A stretch of DNA of 11,999 nucleotides. Source: Alphaproteobacteria bacterium (GTDB lineage Bacteria > Pseudomonadota > Alphaproteobacteria > RF32 > CAG-239). Positions 3,387 to 4,581 of the stretch are shown here, piece after piece. The first letter of the stretch is position 1. Each line of letters begins with the position of its first letter. The position numbers and the translations under genes were made by a program. A model generated the notes under the pieces. It had not been told where the DNA came from. It saw only the letters and a list, made by a program, of their open reading frames with translations, and searched no databases. Where the stretch lies: NCBI GenBank assembly GCA_017963715.1, contig JAGCTK010000071.1, forward strand, positions 1-11,999, in the 5' to 3' direction.

Positions 3387-3656
3387 TTACTTACGCAAAT
3401 CCAACTTTTTGATGATGGCTTGATAACGCTCTGCGCTTGTAGATTTTAAGTGATCCAACAAGTGACGACGTTTGCTTACCATCTTCATCAAACCTAATCT
3501 TGAATGCAAATCTTTTTTATGAACATTAAAGTGCTCAATCAATGCATTGATACGATAGGTCCAGATGGCAATTTGCACTTCCGGAGAACCAGTATCACCC
3601 GGTTTTAAGCCATATTTTGCAACAATTTCTTGTTTCTTTTCATTTGTAATCGACGT
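3387..3656 (-). CDS. rpsO: Small ribosomal subunit protein uS15, apparent ACG start
   Basis: The frame encodes 89 residues when read from ACG at 3656, exactly the usual uS15 length. uS15 binds 16S rRNA helices early in 30S assembly. Conserved uS15 sequence is visible throughout, including [44 protein letters not shown] and the C-terminal IIKKLDLRK. The codons after ACG read [11 protein letters not shown], matching the family N-terminus MSIT. The codon order upstream is TGA, AAG, ACG, so there is no ATG, GTG or TTG before the conserved N-terminus. The first common start codon in frame is GTG at 3578, which would remove 26 conserved residues. AAGGA ends 8 bases before ACG, ideal for initiation there. 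The start overlaps the last 17 bases of truB, suggesting coupled translation. A true ATG altered by a sequence error is the main alternative. Confidence 0.93.
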
Positions 3657-4581
3657 CTTTCAATTCCTTTTTGAATAAATTAAAAACACGAATCGGAGAG
3701 ATTTTTTTCTCTTCAACCCGAACAAGCGCCACCAAACCGGACGAATCATAAGCTGCCATCATATCGCCTTGATGTTGCAAAACATCATACGCTTTTAATG
3801 ACAAACCCTGTCCGTGCCTTAATTTAGCAGCATCTTCAGCCGAAACAGCCAGTGCCGCGATGTCGCGCAGCGCGGTTTCTATCGGCAAAAGAACATCTTG
3901 TCTGCCCCCTTCATACACTATATTTTTCAAATTTTCCAGTAAAATCGTATCCGAACTTAAAAAAAATGAACATTTTGTTCGACGTAACTCCGTCAAATGA
4001 CCGACAGTATTGAGTTTGAGGGCAATATCTCGCCCGAGAGCCCTTATATACGTTCCTTTGGAACAGGACACCTTAAAACAAAACGAATCGGCCGATGTTT
4101 GAGTGCGCAAGACAAGCGAATGTATTTCGACACGGCGAGTCGGCATTACGGGGGCTTGACCGGATCTTGCTAAATCATAGGCGCGTTTGCCGTCGATTTT
4201 GATGGCGCTGTATGCCGGCGGTGTTTGCTCGATTGTACCGATAAAGGAAGGCAATATACCCGTAATTTCATCAATTGACGGAATTCGGCCGCCGCTGCGC
4301 ACAATATCGCCCTCAATATCATCCGTTGAAGTGGCAGTGCCGAATTTTAAGGTAAATTCGTATTCTTTGGAGCCGTCCATCACATAAGCAATCAATTTTG
4401 TGGCTTCACCGAATGCAATCGGCAAAACGCCCGTTGCAAACGGATCTAATGTGCCGGCATGCCCGTTTTTGTTGGCATCAAACAAGCGCCGCGTTTGGTT
4501 GACCACATCAGTTGAGGTCATACCCTTTGGTTTGTCGATGATAAGCCATCCGTTGATGTCTTGATGCTTGGTATGCTTCAT
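3640..4581 (-). CDS. truB: tRNA pseudouridine(55) synthase TruB
   Basis: A 313-residue TruB, which isomerises uridine 55 in the T loop of tRNAs. The N-terminal [14 protein letters not shown] (11-24) and the catalytic motif [15 protein letters not shown], with nucleophile Asp46, are intact. [19 protein letters not shown] and [16 protein letters not shown] are the other family signatures. The last 60-70 residues form the C-terminal PUA-like region. The start ATG follows the upstream membrane-protein gene by 5 bases; the Shine-Dalgarno match is weak (GAAG within the upstream gene), pointing to coupled translation. The stop TGA lies inside the beginning of rpsO. The truB-rpsO-pnp order is common in bacteria, but rbfA, often just upstream, is not here. 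Confidence 0.97.
3654..3669 (-). promoter_or_regulatory. Shine-Dalgarno sequence and ACG start of rpsO
   Basis: On the minus strand AAGGA (3669-3665), an 8-base spacer, then ACG (3656-3654). The spacing picks ACG over the third codon, ATT, which would be 14 bases away. The whole site lies within the 3' end of truB. Confidence 0.7.

Follow-up and report, generated by a model that had tools for sequence, protein, structure and literature searches.

The start region of rpsO

The DNA analysed (the window) is a stretch of 11,999 bases that makes up a whole contig of a metagenome assembly from an alphaproteobacterium, presumably of the gut or rumen. This assembly consists of 1,161,772 bases in 245 contigs and is 90.65% complete. 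Ribosomal protein uS15 is encoded by rpsO, which is located on the minus strand between truB and a gene which we take to be pnp. The following features were identified at this locus:

4581 to 3640, minus strand: truB, tRNA pseudouridine synthase, 313 codons, ending inside rpsO with the stop codon TGA at 3642-3640
3669 to 3665, minus strand: AAGGA, Shine-Dalgarno-like, exactly 8 bases before the ACG
3662 to 3660, minus strand: TGA in frame two codons upstream of the ACG, closing the rpsO frame
3656 to 3387, minus strand: rpsO, ribosomal protein uS15, 89 codons from the ACG plus stop codon, matching PF00312
3656 to 3654, minus strand: ACG at the conserved ATG start site, placed by sequence, alignment and relatives, with 3655 as middle base
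3656 to 3640, minus strand: overlap of truB and rpsO in the sequence, 17 bases
3578 to 3576, minus strand: GTG, the earliest of the usual start codons in frame with rpsO, for a product of 63 residues without 26 conserved residues
3253 to 1136, minus strand: presumed pnp

A profile search of the assembly revealed that uS15 covers the full PF00312 domain (positions 1-81 of 81, E 1.8e-33), and this was the single uS15 match in the whole 1.16 Mb; TruB was identified by PF01509. The rpsO frame opens with TGA (3662-3660), AAG (3659-3657) and ACG (3656-3654), followed by TCG ATT ACA AAT GAA, and it contains no ATG, GTG or TTG upstream of the GTG at 3578. Because the stop codon lies two codons upstream and the GTG 26 codons downstream, a usual start codon compatible with the conserved N-terminus of uS15 is excluded. 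A preliminary description of this DNA had placed the ACG exactly at the conserved start of uS15, with the normal length of 89 residues, AAGGA 8 bases upstream, a loss of 26 residues for a start at GTG 3578 and a distance of 17 bases to the end of truB. Recounting of the sequence and its translation gave the same values throughout, the last one counted from the A of the ACG to the last base of the truB stop codon. This confirms the opening of the uS15 frame with ACG for the deposited sequence, as distinct from the base itself.

The overlap with truB

An exchange of T for C at position 3655 is silent in truB, in which Asp309 is encoded by either GAT or GAC, and for this reason protein records read the same for ATG and ACG. 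The overlap of the two genes, which had been counted as part of the peculiarity, turned out to be ordinary in the family. Among the 140 family loci where it was resolved both how TruB ends and where rpsO starts (L164, L176 and L077 were left out), 20 show such an overlap, 19 with ATG and the present genome with ACG. In the 19 loci with ATG (L040, L050, L102, L112, L138, L151, L153, L156, L158, L159, L161, L163, L165, L166, L169, L170, L171, L175 and L177) the stop codon of truB lies inside rpsO and the two genes share 11 to 38 bases. TruB stops short of rpsO in the seven congeners that have uS15.

A different TruB sequence, P0001, which stands for a cluster of 7 members and whose contig has a listed length of 3,503 bases, is identical in 306 of 313 residues, including the last 13. 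Since the same end occurs in this separate sequence, a misassembly of the truB/rpsO junction is unlikely; P0001 is equally compatible with ATG and ACG, as its Asp309 can come from GAT or from GAC. The end signature of TruB was present in 10 of the 120 TruB proteins among the matches listed, P0001 included, in one case as DVAYK.

The start codon of rpsO in relatives

The family set consisted of 152 genomes including the present one, and all 143 with a uS15 match were read; the nine others were left out. The start of rpsO is ATG in 142 of 142 relatives, and ACG occurs in the present genome alone. In 136 of these relatives the ATG is located at the same codon (133 plus 3 resolved separately), and in 6 it lies one to five codons away from it and the N-terminus differs. 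Of 24 genomes with a uS15 match outside the family, 21 were read (19 plus 2 resolved separately; G041, G050 and G052 were left out), all of them with ATG. An ACG start common to relatives was consequently found neither in the family nor in these outgroups. An alignment of 21 start regions shows the T of the start codon in the 20 other sequences and not in the present genome, and together with the ATG of the 142 family relatives this argues that the position of the ACG is more than chance. The preliminary description had named uniform ATG in relatives as one half of what would speak against its claim, and this half was indeed observed.

Three genomes of the same genus, G004, G009 and G010, gave no uS15 match in the first or in a second search, and these absences were given no weight. 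The TruB match of G010 lies near a contig end. G009, which is 99% complete, lacks a match for both uS15 and TruB, probably owing to an assembly gap.

Search for compensating features

For 125 family loci we scored the Shine-Dalgarno site and the energy needed to open the start region; the other 18 of the 143 were left out since their motif or flank did not match the stricter pattern. AAGGA was the best site in 99 of the 125 loci, with spacings from 6 to 11 bases and 8 bases as the most common value (56 loci). The opening energy of the present start region is 7.01 kcal/mol, compared with a mean of 4.73 (sd 1.51), and 119 of the 124 relatives scored open more easily here. Thus, measured against the family loci, no compensation for the ACG was detected: the intact Shine-Dalgarno site and its spacing are ordinary, and the opening energy is high. 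A recent change, a variant or an error would fit this better than a tuned device.

The tRNA scan of the assembly yielded 29 matches, including an ordinary-looking tRNA-Thr(CGT) and two CAT tRNAs. Judged by eye against the usual initiator features, neither CAT tRNA looks initiator-like, and an initiator tRNA is seemingly absent from the assembly; a special tRNA reading ACG was not evident among the 29 matches. IF3 of the present genome, aligned with 11 relatives (12 sequences), showed no obvious oddity which would indicate a defective factor.

No Rfam family matched at the rpsO start, the sole match in the window being an SRP RNA. The consensus fold of the start region from 21 sequences is weak (-1.11 kcal/mol, by a method that does not cover pseudoknots), its single longer stem is located upstream inside truB, and the single-sequence fold has a z of -1.02. 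Among the 120 of 267 matches that were listed, no uS15 was shorter than 84 residues, so that a short protein of 63 residues from the GTG was not seen. This search is uninformative, since clusters at 90% identity may hide a short copy in a longer one.

Constraint on rpsO and soundness of the assembly

Compared with G001, rpsO differs synonymously in 22 codons and non-synonymously in 2, codons 73 and 75. For six other congeners the corresponding numbers are 22/4, 26/6, 28/4, 26/3, 18/9 and 32/7. On the basis of the 22 to 2 ratio with G001, uS15 is under constraint at the protein level; codon differences of this kind carry no date for the T-to-C change.

To see how often conserved genes of this genome lack a usual start, we read 196,265 bases in 30 stretches, about 17% of the genome, which contain 60 conserved genes whose frame is closed upstream by a stop codon. 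The genes were chosen by their match to relatives (10 more, cut by contig ends, were left out), and a gene was flagged if at least 8 conserved residues preceded the first ATG, GTG or TTG. Fifty-eight of the 60 genes were unflagged. The two flagged ones were rpsO and L241, which judging by its sequence is a tRNA taken for protein and hence an apparent artefact. As the control flagged only rpsO and this apparent artefact, ACG is not a general start codon in the present genome.

Frameshift-like breaks were not detected in 39 aligned stretches with 10,707 residues. The alignments contain 15 internal stop codons: those of the window either precede pnp or fall on the opposite strand of pnp or truB, those of L228 precede a gene start and those of L229 are on the wrong strand. 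A lone stop codon in L245 (5517-5519, minus strand, contig C123) interrupts the conserved region of a gene at a distance of 61 bases from the end of the contig. The gene probably encodes a methyltransferase, and the stop falls inside what resembles motif I. It could be due to an error, to a variant or to decay of the gene. Since a lone premature stop occurs in a conserved gene, single-base faults are possible in this assembly, which lowers the odds of a real ACG and raises those of an error or variant.

A possible base error or minor variant at position 3655

These data bear on the possibility that the C at 3655 is a base error or the allele of a minor strain in the consensus, in which case the species would have ATG and make uS15 normally. 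Such an explanation has a good claim, though we would not call it probable. The ACG is known from one fragmented metagenome assembly only, every relative read has ATG, no second such start was met among the 60 control genes, no compensating change accompanies it and the stop in L245 provides a possible precedent in the same assembly. Furthermore, the neighboring gene offers no argument against an error, as the exchange is silent in truB, and the start codon came to attention in a scan of raw sequence for oddities, a procedure which would favor rare errors. On the other side, contig ends are the likelier fault sites and position 3655 is not near one but well inside a contig of 11,999 bases; the 60 control genes show no further lost start, apart from the apparent tRNA artefact, and an error that falls precisely on the start codon of one particular gene has a low prior probability. 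If the C is an error, it advises caution with start-codon oddities in metagenome assemblies, above all in overlaps where the other frame stays silent.

Possible weak initiation at ACG

The other explanation, to which we give the same tentative standing, takes the base as real. A recent T-to-C change in the strain or species would have turned the start codon of rpsO into ACG, silently with respect to the overlapping truB. The initiator tRNA is able to pair with ACG at the first and third base and would start uS15 at this codon with the middle base mismatched, while the intact AAGGA would position the ribosome on it. Ribosomes that end truB translation 14 to 16 bases downstream would perhaps help and could re-initiate. 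The yield of uS15 is expected to be well below the level of an ATG, and such a yield could be tolerated because uS15 is dispensable, at least in E. coli. Weak initiation at a recently changed codon and a variant or base error are in our view about equally likely.

Published data are consistent with a low yield. In an E. coli reporter system ACG belongs to the group of codons with 0.1-1.5% of the ATG yield (PMC6925171), and with IF3, complexes formed on non-canonical triplets are lost more rapidly (PMC8266586). A yield of about 1% looks low for a ribosomal protein. The values of the reporter study scatter, however, as some quite unrelated codons reached up to 33% (PMC6925171). A strong fall of uS15 need not be lethal either, since E. 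coli with a deletion of rpsO is reported as viable and cold-sensitive (PMC10931766).

If the base is real, the locus would test in nature the minimum of initiation with which the gene of a ribosomal protein gets by, and rpsO would be misread by any gene finder that accepts no start other than ATG, GTG and TTG. In this host the one-letter oddity may represent a start that is real but weak, a variant of rare occurrence or an error in the sequence.

Comparison with other unusual starts

A natural ACG start in a bacterial gene was not found in the literature searched, which comprised titles and the beginnings of abstracts of the papers listed, outside the subscription journals. Hecht and others are said to have studied all 64 codons as start codons. 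Plant organelles likewise carry ACG in the DNA at conserved ATG sites, and we know of no C-to-U editing of start codons of such a kind in bacteria. In chloroplasts the editing of ACG into AUG is common (PMC9845219).

A further case is infC, the gene of IF3, with its AUU and AUA starts. Like rpsO here, it is a gene of the translation apparatus with a codon against which IF3 discriminates, and its unusual start serves autoregulation. The infC gene reads as an ATA start behind GGAGG in 11 of 11 loci examined (L183-L188 and L190-L194, with L185 from the present genome; L189, which has an ATG near the N-terminus, and L195 were left out). In three of the 11 loci an in-frame TAG directly precedes the ATA, so that a start at ATG, GTG or TTG is not possible. 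The ATA in 11 loci means that non-AUG starts exist in the lineage. In contrast to the infC start, which is common to the loci read, the ACG of rpsO occurs in one genome, and no sign of a regulatory role was seen for it. We consider it highly improbable that uS15 is naturally made from the ACG under a control in which start-codon discrimination keeps its level low and ribosomes finishing truB raise it, with a supply that would answer to IF3 and to the translation of truB.

The same gene, rpsO, is autoregulated by uS15 in E. coli, B. stearothermophilus, T. thermophilus and mycobacteria. The known autoregulation works through mRNA structures (PMC10931766), whereas rpsO of the present genome has no Rfam family match and a weak consensus structure only. 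In E. coli, too, rpsO is flanked by truB and pnp (PMC4684408).

The ATA of infC also lends some weight to a start of uS15 at another unusual codon of a genuine rpsO sequence, most likely the ATT at codon 3 (3650-3648), which is near-cognate like ACG and would shorten uS15 by two residues; in a variant of this idea the gene would be nearly silent. This is very unlikely: the ATT is situated 14 bases from AAGGA, outside the range of 6 to 11 bases in the 125 loci scored. Synthesis of uS15 as a TruB-uS15 fusion by a +1 shift of truB ribosomes can practically be dismissed, for although the frames overlap by 17 bases and rpsO is in the +1 frame relative to truB, there is no recognised slippery signal, about 310 extra residues would be attached to a ribosomal protein and ATG is the start in the 19 relatives that share an overlap of this kind.

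SRP RNA and the start of dnaX

The Rfam search of the window identified one further feature:

9708 to 9613, minus strand: bacterial small SRP RNA (RF00169, 49.7 bits), just upstream of dnaX

Since the TTG-started reading frame of dnaX runs into this RNA, dnaX probably begins at a more internal ATG.
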